Assembly: GCA_023666275.1 (NCBI GenBank)
Contig: JAMPCJ010000004.1
Location: 141,367 to 205,366 of the forward strand
Origin: Treponema brennaborense
Lineage (GTDB): Bacteria; Spirochaetota; Spirochaetia; Treponematales; Treponemataceae
Length of the DNA: 64,000 bases
Direction of reading: 5' to 3'
Part shown: piece by piece, positions 12,875 to 17,686 of the stretch
Position numbering within the stretch: the stretch's first letter is position 1
How the letters are laid out: each line of letters begins with the position of its first letter
Notes under the pieces: generated by a model
The model's input: the letters and a program-made list of their open reading frames with translations, nothing else
The model's database searches: none
What the model was told of the DNA's origin: nothing
Translations under genes and position numbers: made by a program

Positions 12875-12902
12875 AGTAGACAGAATATTCATTATCGGAA
12901 GT
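12875..12902 (+). other. dif-like XerC/XerD site, left prophage junction (attL)
   Basis: The 28-bp site has an 11-bp arm AGTAGACAGAA, a 6-bp centre TATTCA and an 11-bp arm TTATCGGAAGT. On the other strand it reads ACTTCCGATAA then TGAATA then TTCTGTCTACT. That aligns closely with the Bacillus subtilis dif site as I recall it, including the outer ACTTCC and the ACT end. The last 20 bp (12883-12902) recur exactly at the right prophage end. A second copy of the outer arm, AGTAGACA followed by AAATATT, starts at 12901. Gene strand switches at this point (+ before, - after), as expected at a replication terminus. Confidence 0.82.
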
Positions 12903-12934: not shown

Positions 12935-13036
12935 ATGCGCAGACGTAGAGGACGCCGGCGTGGTCGCCGCAGAGGTTTCCGCCGTGGTAAACGGTTACGG
13001 AATGTGTTTGTTTCCCGTGGAGGTATCAGACTGTGA
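12935..13036 (+). CDS. Small Arg-rich DNA-binding/packaging protein (J-like)
   Basis: This is a 33-residue protein, with 16 Arg plus 1 Lys, that ends SRGGIRL. Short basic proteins ending RGGIR(L/M) accompany gokushoviruses and are thought to coat or condense the ssDNA in the capsid, like phiX174 J. An AGGAGG (12922-12927) lies 7 nt before the ATG, one of the best ribosome sites in the element. It is the first gene after the left attachment site. Its TGA overlaps the GTG of the next mini-gene (CTGTGA, 13031-13036). Confidence 0.82.
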   Translation: MRRRRGRRRGRRRGFRRGKRLRNVFVSRGGIRL

Positions 13037-13176
13037 GATGTTCTAAACCGATTTATGTTCAATTGTTGCATCGTTGGTATCCTTGTTGCAAGTGTCAAGG
13101 ATGTTTTAAAGATTATGAGGAAAATAAAATGAGGTATGCAATGCGAAAAACCCGTGCGGATAAAAGTAAAGCATGA
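13033..13176 (+). CDS. 47-aa Cys-rich mini-protein resembling the VP4 N terminus
   Basis: The frame starts with GTG overlapping the J-like stop and ends at TGA 13174-13176, overlapping the VP4 gene in another frame by 41 nt. Its residues C3, P6, P17, C18, C21 and C24 reproduce the pattern of the VP4 N terminus (C3, P6, P20, C21, C24, C27). In both proteins the cluster is P-C-x-x-C-x-x-C. It looks like a second, free-standing copy of the VP4 zinc-binding segment. It could be a real regulator or a decayed duplication. GAGG at 13117-13120 lies 8 nt before an internal in-frame ATG (13129), so initiation in this stretch is ambiguous. Confidence 0.5.
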   Translation: MRCSKPIYVQLLHRWYPCCKCQGCFKDYEENKMRYAMRKTRADKSKA

Positions 13177-14005
13177 TTTTGATATTGTCGTGCCGTGTGG
13201 CAGATGTCGATCATGTCGGATTGCATATTCTCGGACGTGGTCAGCTCGTCTTTTGCATGAGTTGAATTATTGGCAGTCTTCGGTTTTTGCAACCCTGACT
13301 TATGATGATGATCATTTGCCGGAAAATGGTTCTCTGGTTAAGAGTGATTTACAGAAATTTTTTAAGAGGTTGAGAAAGAACAATGGACTTGAAAAAAATC
13401 TTCGGTATTTTGCATGCGGTGAATATGGTGATAAAAGCGGTCGTCCGCACTATCACGCAATTATTTACGGGCTCGGATTCCGAGACAGAGAAATGATTAA
13501 AGATGCATGGCGTAAATGTGTATGGTATCCGAAGCTCGATAAAAAGCGCTTCGGTACCGTTACATATGATTCATGCCGGTATGTGTCTGATTATGTATTT
13601 AAAAAATATTCCGGAGTAAAAAATCAGGAAGTTTATACTTCTAAAGGTCTTGAAACTCCGTTTCGGTTGTGTTCCAAAGGTATTGGCTTGCGCTGGGCGC
13701 AAGACAACAAAGAACAGTTGGAACGTCAAGGTGGTTTTACGTTGCACGGTGTTCCTGTGCAGGTTCCCCGTTATTACGTGAAGAAACTCGATTTGAAATT
13801 AAAGCAAGTTGATACTGATGACGTCTGGATCAATTACATGCGGAAAGAAAGTTATGAACTGTATTTACATTGGCGTAAATGGCAGGAACAAAAACGTTTT
13901 GACATGTGTGATTATCTTCTTGATCAGTTTAAGCAGGTTCATGCTGATCAGCGTGCTTTAAATGTGGCTGCTCGGTTATCACTCCGGCAGAAAGGAAGTT
14001 TTTAA
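13136..14005 (+). CDS. VP4, rolling-circle replication initiator (HUH endonuclease)
   Basis: VP4 nicks the viral replicative form at the origin and joins the 5' end through tyrosine, driving rolling-circle synthesis. The 289-aa protein begins with a Cys-rich segment (C3, C21, C24, C27; VPCGRCRSCR). HUH motif 1 is FATLTYDDDH (51-60), the metal-binding motif is RPHYHAIIYG with H105 and H107, and the tyrosine motif is YVSDYVFKK with Y149 and Y153 spaced as in phiX174 A. The ATG at 13136 was chosen because M-x-C-x-x-P is the family's usual N terminus. Its ribosome site is poor (GAGG either 1 or 15 nt away), suggesting re-initiation from the upstream mini-gene. Confidence 0.92.
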   Translation: MQCEKPVRIKVKHDFDIVVPCGRCRSCRIAYSRTWSARLLHELNYWQSSVFATLTYDDDHLPENGSLVKSDLQKFFKRLRKNNGLEKNLRYFACGEYGDKSGRPHYHAIIYGLGFRDREMIKDAWRKCVWYPKLDKKRFGTVTYDSCRYVSDYVFKKYSGVKNQEVYTSKGLETPFRLCSKGIGLRWAQDNKEQLERQGGFTLHGVPVQVPRYYVKKLDLKLKQVDTDDVWINYMRKESYELYLHWRKWQEQKRFDMCDYLLDQFKQVHADQRALNVAARLSLRQKGSF

Positions 14006-14382
14006 TGGCAGATGTGAAAGAGGAAGAATTTGGACTGTATTGCATTTTTGACACTGTTGGTCAGAAAGTTGCCCCGCCTTTTTGTGCTAATAATGAAAAT
14101 GTTGCGGTTCGTGAATTTTTGATTGGTTGTTTTAATGCAAATTTGCCTCCGCAGGATATGCAGTTATTGCGGATTGGTACGTATACTGCGATTTATTCTG
14201 AAGAATTTGTTTTTGATCAGGAAACTGGTAAAAATGAATTTCATCGTGATTTGGTCGGTGTTCATATTCATGGTCTTGATGATTTTGAAGTGATTGATGT
14301 AACTGAAGATGATGTTGAACATTATTTTCTTGCGTTGCAGCGATTAAATGAGGAGTTAAAGAATGGCAAAGTCTTACAGTAG
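14005..14382 (+). CDS. VP5, gokushovirus non-structural protein
   Basis: This 125-aa acidic soluble protein resembles the gokushovirus ORF5/VP5 family. The N-terminal pattern is LYCIFDTVGQ followed by PPFCANNENVAVREF, and then PPQDMQLLRIGTY. In the family these positions read roughly YxVYDxVA, PFxAKNDAVAxRAF and DxELYRIG. VP5 is thought to act in the switch to single-stranded genome synthesis, but this is poorly established. It starts at the last base of the VP4 stop (TAATGG, overlap 1 nt) and overlaps VP1 by 20 nt. The C-terminal 40 residues are unusually acidic. Confidence 0.75.
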   Translation: MADVKEEEFGLYCIFDTVGQKVAPPFCANNENVAVREFLIGCFNANLPPQDMQLLRIGTYTAIYSEEFVFDQETGKNEFHRDLVGVHIHGLDDFEVIDVTEDDVEHYFLALQRLNEELKNGKVLQ

Positions 14383-16126
14383 ACGCGCATTTCGCGCTTT
14401 TCAGAAAGTTAAAACCTTGAAACCGTCAAGGTCGCTTTTCGATTTGTCGCATGATATGCTTTTCACTGGTGATATGGGATTGCTTTATCCAGTTTGTGCA
14501 ATGGAAATGTCGCCCGGTGATACGTTTCATATTTGGTCTGAACAAGTTTTGCGTATGCAACCGTTAAATGCGCCGATTTTGCATGAAATTAACAGTTCTA
14601 CGCATTATTTTTTCGCCCCGTATCGGATTCTTGATGATAATTTCGTTGATATAATTACTGGTGGTGTTGACGGTGAGTACGGTGATAATGAGACGCCTAC
14701 TGATAGCGCGCCTGCTCTGCCTCGTTGGAAGCCGACAAATAATGCAATCGGTTCCCTCTGGGATTATTTTGGTCTTCCTACTGGTGTTGATCCTGTTGGT
14801 GCTTATCCGGTTGATTATATTAAACGTGCTTATAACAAGATCTGGAATGATTATTACCGTGATGAGAATTTGCAGGAAGAAGTTGACATAACGCAGAATG
14901 AAGCCGTTTTGCGGCGGAATTGGAAAAAAGATTATTTTACTTCCGCTTTGCTTGGTCAACAGCGTGGTACAGCTCCGTCTATGCCGTTGTCTGGTTCTGC
15001 TCCGGTAACTTCTGTTGGTGATTTTGATGATTATAAATATTTCCCTAATATTCAGCTTGCTTATTCTCTTAGTGATTCTTCGAATCAAAATGCATCGGTT
15101 TTTTTGATTTTTAAGGATCAGACTTATATTAAGTCTACGATAGTTGATGCTGGTTATGCTGTTATTGGTGTTGTTCCGACTTCTGATTCAAATGTTCCGG
15201 ATGCAGGTAATTATATTACGTTTCGGAATATGGTTTTTCATCTGAATTCAGGTAATTATGGTGTTTCTGCGAATTATCAGTATTTTGGTTCCGGTGGTGG
15301 CTCTGTTGTTGGTACGCTTACTGTTACGCTTGTTTGTGCTAAAGTGAATTCTTCTGGTTCTGCGGATCTTGCTGGCACTAACAGTGTTGATGTCAAGGAT
15401 CTTCGTATTGCGTTTCAAATACAGCGCTGGCTCGAACTTGCGAATCGTGGCGGTGTCCGTTATACAGAATTTTTGCGTTCGTTTTTTGGCGTAAGTCCTC
15501 GTGATGACAGGTTACAGCGTCCAGAATATATCGGTGGTACAAAGTCCCCTGTTGTTATCTCTGAAGTTCTCCAGACGTCTGCAACCAATCCCGCGCAGTC
15601 AACTGAAACAGTACTTGCTACAATGGCTGGACATGGTGTGTCTGCAACTCGTACTTTCGTCGGTTCGTATACAGCCGTTGAATTCGGTGTTCTTATTGGT
15701 GTTATGTCTGTTATGCCAACGCCGAAATATGCGCAAGGTATAAACAGGCAGTGGCTCCGCCGGACGAAGTATGATTTCTTATTTCCGCAGTTTACGCATT
15801 TGTCTGAACAAGCCATTGAAGGTGCCGAAATTTACGCAACTAACAATGAAGCTGAAAATCGTAAGGTTTTTGGCTTTAATGAGATTTATGACGAATTACG
15901 TGCAATGCCCTCAAAAATCGCCGGAAAAATGCGTTCTACGTTTAATTATTGGCACCTTGCCAGAATTTTCGATAAGAAGCCTGCATTAAATTCCGAGTTC
16001 ATTCAATGCAATCCAAGTAAGCGAATTTTCGCCGTTCCCAGTGAAGACGGATTGATTATGTCTGTTGCAAATATTATTCGTGCCGTTCGTCCTTTGCCGA
16101 AGTATGGTACGCCCGGAGGTGTTTAA
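14363..16126 (+). CDS. VP1 major capsid protein
   Basis: This is the 587-aa single-jelly-roll capsid protein of Gokushovirinae. N-terminal signatures are PSRSLFDLSHDML, GLLYPVCAMEMSPGDTF and YFFAPYRILDDNF. Near the C terminus are GINRQWLRRTKYDFLFPQF, LSEQAIEGAEIY and the end VRPLPKYGTPGGV. The central region (about residues 210-330) is Gly/Ser/Asn-rich and low in conservation, where the family has the variable spike-forming insertion. It begins inside VP5. The nearest upstream ribosome-site candidate is GAGG (14350-14353), 9 nt before ATG. No frameshift or stop interrupts it, which argues for a functional virus. Confidence 0.95.
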   Translation: MAKSYSRRAFRAFQKVKTLKPSRSLFDLSHDMLFTGDMGLLYPVCAMEMSPGDTFHIWSEQVLRMQPLNAPILHEINSSTHYFFAPYRILDDNFVDIITGGVDGEYGDNETPTDSAPALPRWKPTNNAIGSLWDYFGLPTGVDPVGAYPVDYIKRAYNKIWNDYYRDENLQEEVDITQNEAVLRRNWKKDYFTSALLGQQRGTAPSMPLSGSAPVTSVGDFDDYKYFPNIQLAYSLSDSSNQNASVFLIFKDQTYIKSTIVDAGYAVIGVVPTSDSNVPDAGNYITFRNMVFHLNSGNYGVSANYQYFGSGGGSVVGTLTVTLVCAKVNSSGSADLAGTNSVDVKDLRIAFQIQRWLELANRGGVRYTEFLRSFFGVSPRDDRLQRPEYIGGTKSPVVISEVLQTSATNPAQSTETVLATMAGHGVSATRTFVGSYTAVEFGVLIGVMSVMPTPKYAQGINRQWLRRTKYDFLFPQFTHLSEQAIEGAEIYATNNEAENRKVFGFNEIYDELRAMPSKIAGKMRSTFNYWHLARIFDKKPALNSEFIQCNPSKRIFAVPSEDGLIMSVANIIRAVRPLPKYGTPGGV

Positions 16127-16130
16127 AAAA

Positions 16131-16616
16131 ATGGACAGTGTTAGAATTATTCCGTATCCAAATCCGGAAGATGTGCCGGATAAAGAGACAATGTTTGAGT
16201 GCGTTACAGATCAGACAGATGAGGTTGAAAGATCGGATTATGTCAGTCCGGATAAAAAGATTGAGTCTTTTATTCATTCTGGTGTTTTACTTCAGAATAT
16301 GAATGCGTCCGGCGGTTCGTATGAATTGGACGGTTCAGAAACAGAAGCTGATCCAGATTCCCCGGCATATCGTGAAGAGTTGGAAAGAGATGCGGAAAGC
16401 CTTAAAGGTTCGCCGCTTCCTCAACATTTCGATAAAATCGATGCATTGGAAGTTGTTGAATCGATTGAAAAGCAGGCAGAAGTGAAAGAAAATAATGCGC
16501 GTGTGAATGAAACGCGCGCGCAAGAATTTTCTACTTCTTCGTCTGCTGATTCTGTCGTTTCTCACAACGAAAATAAAGAGATTCAATCGGAAAATGTGCA
16601 GAAAAGTGCACAGTAA
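16131..16616 (+). CDS. VP3 internal scaffolding protein
   Basis: The ATG at 16131 follows GGAGG (16115-16119) with an 11-nt spacer, and gives a 161-aa acidic protein. The usual VP3 signature near the N terminus is visible in divergent form: FECVTDQTDEVERSDYVSPD, then IESFIHSGVL. The middle keeps the SPAYREELERDAESL segment where the family has a YxDxxxxxDYxExL pattern. The tail is low-complexity Glu/Asn/Ser. In gokushoviruses VP3 guides procapsid assembly and leaves before maturation. Position directly after VP1 supports the call. A longer in-frame reading from 16065 lies inside VP1 and is less likely. Confidence 0.78.
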   Translation: MDSVRIIPYPNPEDVPDKETMFECVTDQTDEVERSDYVSPDKKIESFIHSGVLLQNMNASGGSYELDGSETEADPDSPAYREELERDAESLKGSPLPQHFDKIDALEVVESIEKQAEVKENNARVNETRAQEFSTSSSADSVVSHNENKEIQSENVQKSAQ

Positions 16617-16625
16617 TAATTAAAA

Positions 16626-16650
16626 AATACGGGCTTGCAAAGCCCGTATT
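16626..16650 (+). terminator. Perfect 11-bp hairpin after VP3
   Basis: AATACGGGCTT (16626-16636) and AAGCCCGTATT (16640-16650) form a perfect stem with a GCA loop, 10 nt after the VP3 stop. It is preceded by an A-run and followed by only TTTC, so it could act as a weak bidirectional terminator for the capsid transcript or as a secondary structure of the viral origin region. Confidence 0.6.
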
Positions 16651-16652
16651 TC

Positions 16653-16730
16653 ACGGGGGCGCGGGGGTGATAAACCCCCGTAAGTCAATTGGCTATGGTT
16701 TATTGCTTGATGTTAATATAGCCAATTGAC
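16653..16730 (+). other. Predicted viral origin: G-rich stem and hairpin with Rep nick site
   Basis: Two further structures sit between VP3 and VP2. ACGGGGG (16653-16659), or alternatively CGGGGG (16662-16667), pairs with the C5 tract at 16675-16681. Next, GTCAATTGGCTAT (16684-16696) and ATAGCCAATTGAC (16718-16730) form a perfect 13-bp stem around a 21-nt loop. The loop holds CTTGATGTTAATA (16706-16718), 12 of 13 identical to the phiX174 origin core CTTGATATTAATA, where gene A protein cuts after TTG. The predicted nick is therefore between 16709 and 16710. An unpaired loop is where an HUH nuclease cuts. Confidence 0.75.
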
Positions 16731-16785
16731 ACCACAAGCATACTCCGGTATGATTGTGATAGTCCTAAAGTATGAGGTTGAAAAA

Positions 16786-17538
16786 ATGGAACCTATTACA
16801 ATGGCTGCTTTGATTGCTGGTGCGTCTTCTTTGATTTCGACTGTTGGCAGTCATATTTATAATTCAAGACAAACTAAAATTCAGCAGGAGCGCGAGGATA
16901 CTGCAACACAGCGTCGTGCTTCTGATTTGATTTCTGCTGGTCTTTCTCCCACTCTTGCTGCGGGTTCTGCCGCGGATTCTTCAGCTCCAATTACTGGCGA
17001 CAATATGCCGGATCCAGTTGCAAAGGCTCTTGCGTATATGCAAGGTAAAGCAAATATTTCTTCAACAAATGCTGGTACTGCTTTGGCAGAACAACAAGCG
17101 ACTTCAGAAGAAAATCGTCGGATTGTGTTTAATGCGCAAGCTGCAAAAATGATGTCTGAAAAGCAGGAAATTGATTTACGGAATGCTTGGCAGGATACAG
17201 AGCATATGATGCAACTTGGCAGATATAATTCTGATATGCGTATTGCAGGACGTAAAATGTCTGAAATGCTTGCAAATACCAATCTTTTGAAAGCAAAGAC
17301 TGTGCAGGAACAAGTTGGTCTTGATTTGCTTAAAACTCAGATTGACAATGAAAAGATTTTGCGCGATATGAATAATTTTAATTTGACGACTGCTGGCATT
17401 CGTCTTTATAACGATTCTTGGAATGTTAATAAAGGTGCACTTGGCAAAATTTTTGGTGATTTACGACAGCCGTTTTCTGGTTTTGATATTCGTAATGCGA
17501 TTAACAATGTTGATCGTTCTTGGTATTGGGATAAGTAA
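16786..17538 (+). CDS. VP2 minor capsid / DNA pilot protein
   Basis: The ATG at 16786 has GAGG (16774-16777) 8 nt upstream and gives a 250-aa protein; an in-frame upstream ATG at 16726 would read through the origin hairpin and is unlikely. The N terminus is hydrophobic (about residues 4-24). The family hallmark RRASDLISAGLSPTLAAG follows (compare D-x-x-x-A-G-L-N-P-x-L-A in other gokushoviruses). Then comes a long helical region rich in Gln, Asn and Ala. VP2 is carried in the virion and is thought to help deliver the genome through the envelope. Confidence 0.85.
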   Translation: MEPITMAALIAGASSLISTVGSHIYNSRQTKIQQEREDTATQRRASDLISAGLSPTLAAGSAADSSAPITGDNMPDPVAKALAYMQGKANISSTNAGTALAEQQATSEENRRIVFNAQAAKMMSEKQEIDLRNAWQDTEHMMQLGRYNSDMRIAGRKMSEMLANTNLLKAKTVQEQVGLDLLKTQIDNEKILRDMNNFNLTTAGIRLYNDSWNVNKGALGKIFGDLRQPFSGFDIRNAINNVDRSWYWDK

Positions 17539-17539
17539 G

Positions 17540-17659
17540 ATGTTTTTGTATATTGATCCCGGATATGGTTCTTCTTTGTTCAGTGCTATTTCTGGTTTTT
17601 GTTCAGTTGTTTTTTTGGTTGCTCTTGCAATGTTTTTAATTTTTCGGTTCCGGAAGTGA
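17540..17659 (+). CDS. 39-aa single-pass membrane protein; possible lysis protein
   Basis: The ATG is 1 nt after the VP2 stop, suggesting coupled translation. The protein starts MFLYIDPGYGSS, has one strong hydrophobic helix (about residues 13-35) and ends in the basic tail RFRK. The Y-I-D-P-G-x-G-S opening resembles that of small bacterial membrane proteins of unknown function. Known gokushoviruses lack an obvious phiX174 E homologue, so a tiny membrane protein encoded last in the element is a candidate single-gene lysis factor. That is inference from size and topology only. Its TGA (17657-17659) touches the right attachment site. Confidence 0.62.
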   Translation: MFLYIDPGYGSSLFSAISGFCSVVFLVALAMFLIFRFRK

Positions 17660-17686
17660 ATTCATGGAATATTCATTATCGGAAGT
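17659..17686 (+). other. Right prophage junction (attR), half dif-like site
   Basis: The arm TTATCGGAAGT (17676-17686) and centre TATTCA (17670-17675) are identical to the left site. The other arm (AATTCATGGAA, 17659-17669) is degenerate. Reconstruction: attB would be identical to the left site, and the free phage's attP identical to this one. Integration thus regenerated a full host dif at the left and left an imperfect site at the right. The last base is also the final base of the stop codon of the downstream - strand gene, so no host gene is interrupted. Confidence 0.78.

Follow-up and report, generated by a model that had tools for sequence, protein, structure and literature searches.

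A VP2-coupled microprotein of a Treponema brennaborense gokushovirus prophage with a head homologous to a host glycerophosphotransferase anchor: a candidate envelope decoy

The window analyzed here, a 64,000-nucleotide stretch of Treponema brennaborense DNA, contains an intact prophage of 4,784 bp flanked by two exact copies of a 20-nt repeat, at 12883-12902 and at 17667-17686. The element is a gokushovirus prophage: a Phage_F capsid protein, a microvirus replication initiator, VP2, and flanking dif-like repeats are all present, and gokushovirus prophages described elsewhere (PMC7062461) provide a comparison. All of its genes lie on the forward strand, beginning with a basic J/VP8-like peptide (12935-13036) with the ending SRGGIRL, which recurs behind VP2 in many gokushoviruses, followed by the replication initiator Rep (VP4; 13136-14005; PF23343, 2.3e-19; PHROG 942, 1.6e-78), a VP5-like protein (14005-14382; PF20577, 4.8e-9), and the major capsid protein VP1 (14363-16126; Phage_F, 5.8e-100). 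The next gene (16131-16616) is assigned to the VP3 position by its location only and has no family match in Pfam or PHROGs; it is followed by the DNA pilot protein VP2 (16786-17538), recognized from PHROG pilot-protein families and by tblastn to annotated pilot proteins, and finally by a 39-residue ORF. The exact repeats are contained in 28-bp dif-like attachment sites, the left one, AGTAGACAGAATATTCATTATCGGAAGT, at 12875-12902 and the right one, the core of which is also found in phage PQ006200, at 17659-17686, such that the first base of the right site is the last base of the stop codon of the 39-residue ORF. These sites match the dif sequence of B. subtilis at 21 of 28 positions. Reading of the window ORFs places mreB-mreC-mreD-mrdA-rodA upstream of the prophage, as a preliminary description of this DNA had reported, and its suggestion that the proximity to wall genes reflects dif is borne out by the flanking sites. 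A related prophage is found in a 'Treponema sp.' MAG belonging to the same order as the host spirochaete.

The VP3-VP2 intergenic region (16617-16760) is strongly structured, with a fold z-score of -7.7, and its layout is common to the window phage and a sibling phage (locus L029, 2224-2410): a terminator-like hairpin, a nick-site-like hairpin, and then a promoter. On the basis of the fold z-score and its occurrence in the sibling, the 14-bp hairpin at 16684-16730 (forward strand) holding GCTTGATGTTAATATAG (CTTGATGTTAATA) is a probable Rep nicking origin; the hairpin sequence CTTGATGTTAATA resembles the phiX174 nick site. The promoter-like sequence TTGACA-17-TATGAT (16726-16754, forward strand; 11/12 match) precedes VP2 and the microprotein gene, and PQ006200, the sibling, has the same two hexamers at the same spacing but a diverged spacer sequence.

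The 39-residue ORF (17540-17659, forward strand; translation MFLYIDPGYGSSLFSAISGFCSVVFLVALAMFLIFRFRK) is indeed, as previously described, the last before the right attachment repeat, coupled to VP2, and predicted to cross the membrane once. The VP2 stop codon TAA occupies 17536-17538 and the ATG of the microprotein begins at 17540, leaving one base between them, and the termination-reinitiation layout is therefore real. The AlphaFold2 model comprises a short N-tail followed by a single helix spanning residues 7-38; the codons at 17549-17584 specify the head YIDPGYGSSLFS (residues 4-15), which is host-like as detailed below, and those at 17576-17659 the hydrophobic helix, the basic tail FRFRK, and the stop codon. 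Searches of Pfam, PHROGs, and NCBIfam with the microprotein yield nothing significant, the Syndecan match at 0.012 being a generic transmembrane match, and a PDB sequence search returns no match. An imperfect 23-nt tandem repeat (83%; 17575-17620), the period of which is not a multiple of three, lies inside the gene and may have helped to build the transmembrane segment. Two properties of the ORF are what a chance reading frame in T-rich DNA, rather than a gene, would be expected to show, namely its composition (52% T, T-rich frames being hydrophobic by default) and its weak ribosome-binding site, a GGGA eight bases upstream of a start that is coupled to the VP2 stop. Yet in Markov simulations that preserve the T-rich composition, a coupled transmembrane ORF of comparable size and with a basic tail turns up in only ∼0.1% of sequences, and the explanation by chance becomes scarcely credible when the relationship of the protein to a host enzyme is considered.

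Querying the host genome with the 39 residues returns, apart from the ORF itself, a single significant match: the N-terminus (MTQLFLPLYIDPGTGSMLFSILIGAAATLFFLAKAAAIKIK) of a protein of 418 residues encoded 67 kb from the ORF. Across the family, a match at E<=0.01 occurs in 136 of 245 genomes and almost without exception falls on a long ORF, in most cases one of 410-450 codons. Against a profile built from 20 host anchors the phage protein scores 37.6 bits, with E 8e-11 for Z=1000, in an ungapped alignment of ∼34 residues, whereas the best score from 20,000 shuffles is 14.1 bits, and the start spacing M-F-L-YIDPG is that of host L019. The phage head is identical to the host consensus YIDPGTGSMLFS at 10 of 12 positions. 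It keeps every one of the residues Y, D, P, G, G, S, and L that are invariant in 47/47 host heads, as well as a Gly found in 46/47; the Thr at head position 6, likewise invariant in the hosts (47/47), is Tyr in the phage, and at helix position 26 the K or R of 46/47 hosts is replaced by Leu. Past the head the match of the transmembrane segment is weak, since ∼1.4% of shuffles score equally well. In AlphaFold2 models the helix begins at or next to the YIDPG proline in both the phage protein and the host enzyme. Codons at residues shared between phage and host are identical at no more than 7 of 16, and conservation is therefore at the level of protein and not of DNA. Recent capture of DNA from the host gene was considered and is ruled out by a DNA identity of at most 53%. 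These observations confirm that the ORF is a real gene-like feature beyond chance; the head is, judging from the profile and alignment, homologous to the N-terminal anchor of the host enzyme, and the previously suggested mimicry of a host partner is strongly supported as mimicry of this membrane anchor.

The 418-residue host protein is a TagF-like glycerophosphotransferase (PF04464, 4.6e-9), the predicted model of which finds its best structural match in TagF (3l7k, E 2.4e-11). Because head conservation in loci fetched by means of the head is circular, the host heads were re-measured on loci collected by catalytic domain only. Among these 50 enzymes the head is present in 47 and one is cut by a contig end; in the remaining two, from other genomes (L223, 2201-4273; L224, 199-2274), a YidC insertase domain (PF02096, 6e-37) fused to PF04464 replaces the head. 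In this genome the enzyme gene adjoins and overlaps a gene for a 903-residue YidC-sulfatase fusion protein (L142, 6888-9599; YidC 4e-24; 60KD_IMP 2.3e-22; sulfatase 6e-5, just below the curated Pfam cut-off), and among 30 loci with limited flanks, 19 place this gene or a homologue beside that of the enzyme. In distant enzymes a signal peptide ends directly before the head (...APAFA-YLDPGTGS), which places the head in the periplasm and the enzyme inside. The resemblance of the phage protein's opening to small bacterial membrane proteins, noted in the preliminary description, stands insofar as other spirochaetes possess standalone YID/YLDPGxGS membrane proteins of about 60-120 residues with a single transmembrane segment (L134-L140); the closest match, however, is the anchor of the large host enzyme. 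Each of the five loci tested for the standalone proteins has a sulfatase-superfamily gene close by, which in four scores above the Pfam cut-off. Downstream of the standalone proteins lies a conserved protein starting SFRDPSGF, with a weak methyltransferase match in one case. The head of the standalone proteins is covered by no Pfam model, and a literature search for the motif string YIDPGTGS found no paper. Gene contexts of this kind suggest that the head probably serves a surface-polymer module as a docking motif exposed to the periplasm, with a YidC-like/sulfatase protein as its partner. An uncharacterized bacterial membrane motif is in this way connected, within the synthesis of surface polymers, with YidC-like and sulfatase-superfamily partners. 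The host copy is found fused to or beside surface-polymer or sulfatase-superfamily genes; the neighbors of the phage copy are phage genes on one side and the attachment site on the other. As to the earlier proposal that Mre, MrdA, and RodA products are the targets, no evidence was obtained for it, the mimicked protein being instead the glycerophosphotransferase with its associated YidC-sulfatase protein.

A copy of a docking motif that is short and highly hydrophobic, is predicted to sit N-out/C-in, and would be produced along with VP2 is most readily interpreted as a decoy. The best explanation, which we hold tentatively and at somewhat less than an even chance, is thus that the VP2-coupled microprotein acts as a decoy for the membrane partner of the host anchor and thereby disables or hijacks the surface-glycopolymer machinery. 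Reinitiation behind VP2 would give rise to the microprotein, which would enter the inner membrane N-out/C-in; its head, facing the periplasm, would be captured from the host and reproduce the docking motif YIDPGTGSMLFS that seats the host glycerophosphotransferase in the membrane. The microprotein would occupy the binding site of the anchor on its membrane partner, most likely the YidC-like/sulfatase-superfamily protein encoded beside the enzyme, and late in infection the surface-glycopolymer machinery would be disabled or hijacked, with an output of either envelope weakening that aids release, as in lysis, or a surface change that blocks re-adsorption. We infer translation, topology, binding partner, and effect of the microprotein from sequence. 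That its head copies the most conserved part of the host anchor points to viral manipulation of the envelope through mimicry. Counting against the decoy are the change of the invariant Thr to Tyr, the loss of the basic residue at helix position 26, the weak match beyond the head, the missing head in the sibling phage, and the sulfatase domain of the presumed host partner, which falls just short of the Pfam cut-off.

A decoy need not have any role in lysis: by stopping synthesis of a surface polymer that serves as phage receptor it could instead mediate superinfection exclusion by the prophage, a reading with which the intact state of the element and the surface-polymer type of the mimicked transferase are consistent. 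This alternative is nevertheless quite improbable, as the gene belongs to the VP2 unit and its expression would be expected alongside that of the structural genes, and no receptor is known. The head might also be a mere insertion or targeting signal suited to the YidC-like insertase of the host, with the helix having another function, for example in the virion or in ejection, as a membrane component produced jointly with VP2. Coupling to the gene for the pilot protein, the link of the host anchor to YidC-like domains, and the direct binding of YidC on insertion by short N-out/C-in proteins such as Pf3 coat (PMC8920935) all speak for a signal of this kind, but a plain signal depends on charge and hydrophobicity and would not call for identity at 10 of 12 residues, most relatives do without the head, and nothing points to a virion protein, making this reading distinctly unlikely.

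A class of VP2-coupled microproteins was defined here by an ATG at the VP2 stop, a length of 25-60 residues, one strong transmembrane segment, and a basic C-tail; the window microprotein belongs to it, and at 94 gokushovirus VP2 ends five members are observed as against 0.01 expected. These are the window phage, PQ006200 (MISMVFVCLFAFFTLFFLVFVLVFGIKFIKHWFGKH), PQ006237 (MEFLPFLIIIILFVVIVKAISNIGGKK), the IMG/VR phage L111, and the spirochaete prophage L150 (MMFGIILLLLLLSTFLFVVWIVNQFTKK), a set that is not fully independent because the window phage and PQ006200 are related. With looser criteria the pattern is found behind VP2 in 8/101 cases, behind Rep in 1/106, and behind the capsid gene in 1/118 (Fisher p = 0.002). 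Several gokushoviruses thus carry VP2-coupled transmembrane microproteins that annotation misses or leaves unnamed. The basic tail of the window microprotein is similar in character to those of the other four, and the YIDPG head is present in the window phage only. The preliminary description had tied its reading to occurrence of the ORF in close relatives, and this holds in part: the nearest sibling, PQ006200 (major capsid protein 78% identical), has at the same place a headless 36-residue transmembrane microprotein, annotated as hypothetical, whereas in most gokushoviruses examined, including the spirochaete prophages L149 and L151, no transmembrane ORF lies behind VP2. Many gokushoviruses, L149 and L151 among them, have a basic peptide directly 3' of VP2. 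Homologues with the head, for which the earlier description had looked to other microviruses, were not found: tblastn against INPHARED phages gives no match for either the 39 residues or the host anchor, and two degenerate-DNA scans of IMG/VR retrieved 10 contigs, in none of which a microvirus microprotein has the head in frame; the hits were out of frame, within unrelated ORFs, or in very short frames. Since the sibling lacks the head, it is not needed for the general role of the slot, and since most relatives lack such an ORF, the microprotein is not a universal gokushovirus lysis gene. With the transmembrane ORF missing in many gokushoviruses and the head in no other virus searched, the position behind VP2 is at most an accessory effector slot, and lysis as its output is hypothetical.

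Other ORFs were observed in the same survey. The 51-residue VP2-coupled transmembrane microprotein of L111 (4871-5026) has a start, LLNIEPGLFLW, that weakly resembles the N-terminus of the ATP synthase b-subunit (AtpF-like; NCBIfam E 0.077, weak) and is possibly a second host-anchor mimic. VP2-coupled ORFs in L053, L072, and L051 are lipoprotein-like, with TGCTN or LCASC near the N-terminus. Short transmembrane ORFs located between Rep and VP5/VP1 in L149 (3297-3404, reverse complement), L030 (4087-4209), and L031 (3890-4039) are alternative lysis-gene candidates.

To our knowledge, gokushoviruses are among the commonest ssDNA phages, and how they leave their hosts is largely unknown. The only gokushovirus lysis factor proposed in the literature searched is an M15 peptidase present in some genomes (PMC3394797). 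The microprotein could be a single-gene lysis protein of the usual sort, with a transmembrane helix and basic tail that act either by disturbing the membrane or by inhibiting a membrane protein of peptidoglycan synthesis, MurJ being the target of the levivirus M protein; the head would then have a secondary role in targeting. Several features fit the levivirus proteins: it is small, with one transmembrane segment and a basic tail, it is coupled to where a structural gene ends, and its sequence turns over between sibling phages. No other lysis gene is recognized in the prophage by Pfam or PHROGs. Because most gokushoviruses have no transmembrane ORF behind VP2, however, their lysis function would have to lie elsewhere, and the strong retention of the host anchor head at the protein level is left unexplained, so that this explanation is considered unlikely, although the microprotein is a possible lysis factor in the wider sense. 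The decoy interpretation, if true, describes a mimicry-based lysis or exclusion effector in a microvirus, providing a concrete candidate for gokushovirus exit together with a named host protein whose motif is copied. In its fullest form, in which a stolen docking motif deployed as a 39-residue decoy would disable the YidC-like/sulfatase complex, leading to lysis or exclusion, and the post-VP2 slot would hold rapidly exchanged envelope effectors, the proposal is rather doubtful.

Compared with known systems, the microprotein most closely resembles the YIDPGTGS anchors of spirochaete TagF-like (PF04464) enzymes, with which it shares the head YIDPGxGSxLFS, the start spacing, and the following helix, and from which it differs in being phage-encoded, in lacking an enzyme domain and the basic residue at helix position 26, and in the change of Thr to Tyr. 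The standalone spirochaete YID/YLDPGxGS proteins are also small, with a single transmembrane segment and the same type of head, but they are cellular, are mostly longer, with frames of 68-120 residues, often have a signal peptide ahead of the head, and are less similar to the microprotein than the enzyme anchor is. The microprotein of bajarodmic virus 106 (PQ006200, XHH64906.1) corresponds in its position relative to VP2 and the attachment core, size, single transmembrane segment, and basic tail, whereas it is without the YIDPG head and has no detectable sequence similarity to the window microprotein. MS2 L-like lysis proteins have a basic N-terminal region and a Leu-Ser motif after the hydrophobic segment; the microprotein sequence contains neither an LS dipeptide nor a basic N-terminal region and in this respect is not MS2 L-like. 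Levivirus single-gene lysis proteins such as MS2 L and the protein of phage M, for which a short ORF, a transmembrane segment, and a legitimate ribosome-binding site have served as criteria, overlap or abut coat or rep and evolve rapidly (PMC7693330), and the microprotein is like them in being short, crossing the membrane once, and lying at the end of a structural gene; it differs in a head that appears to be host-derived, and the likeness is one of layout and not of sequence. Finally, Pf3 coat is likewise a short, phage-encoded, single-spanning protein, the N-tail of which enters the YidC groove (PMC8920935), but it is a filamentous virion protein, and the likeness lies in the probable route of N-tail insertion and not in sequence.
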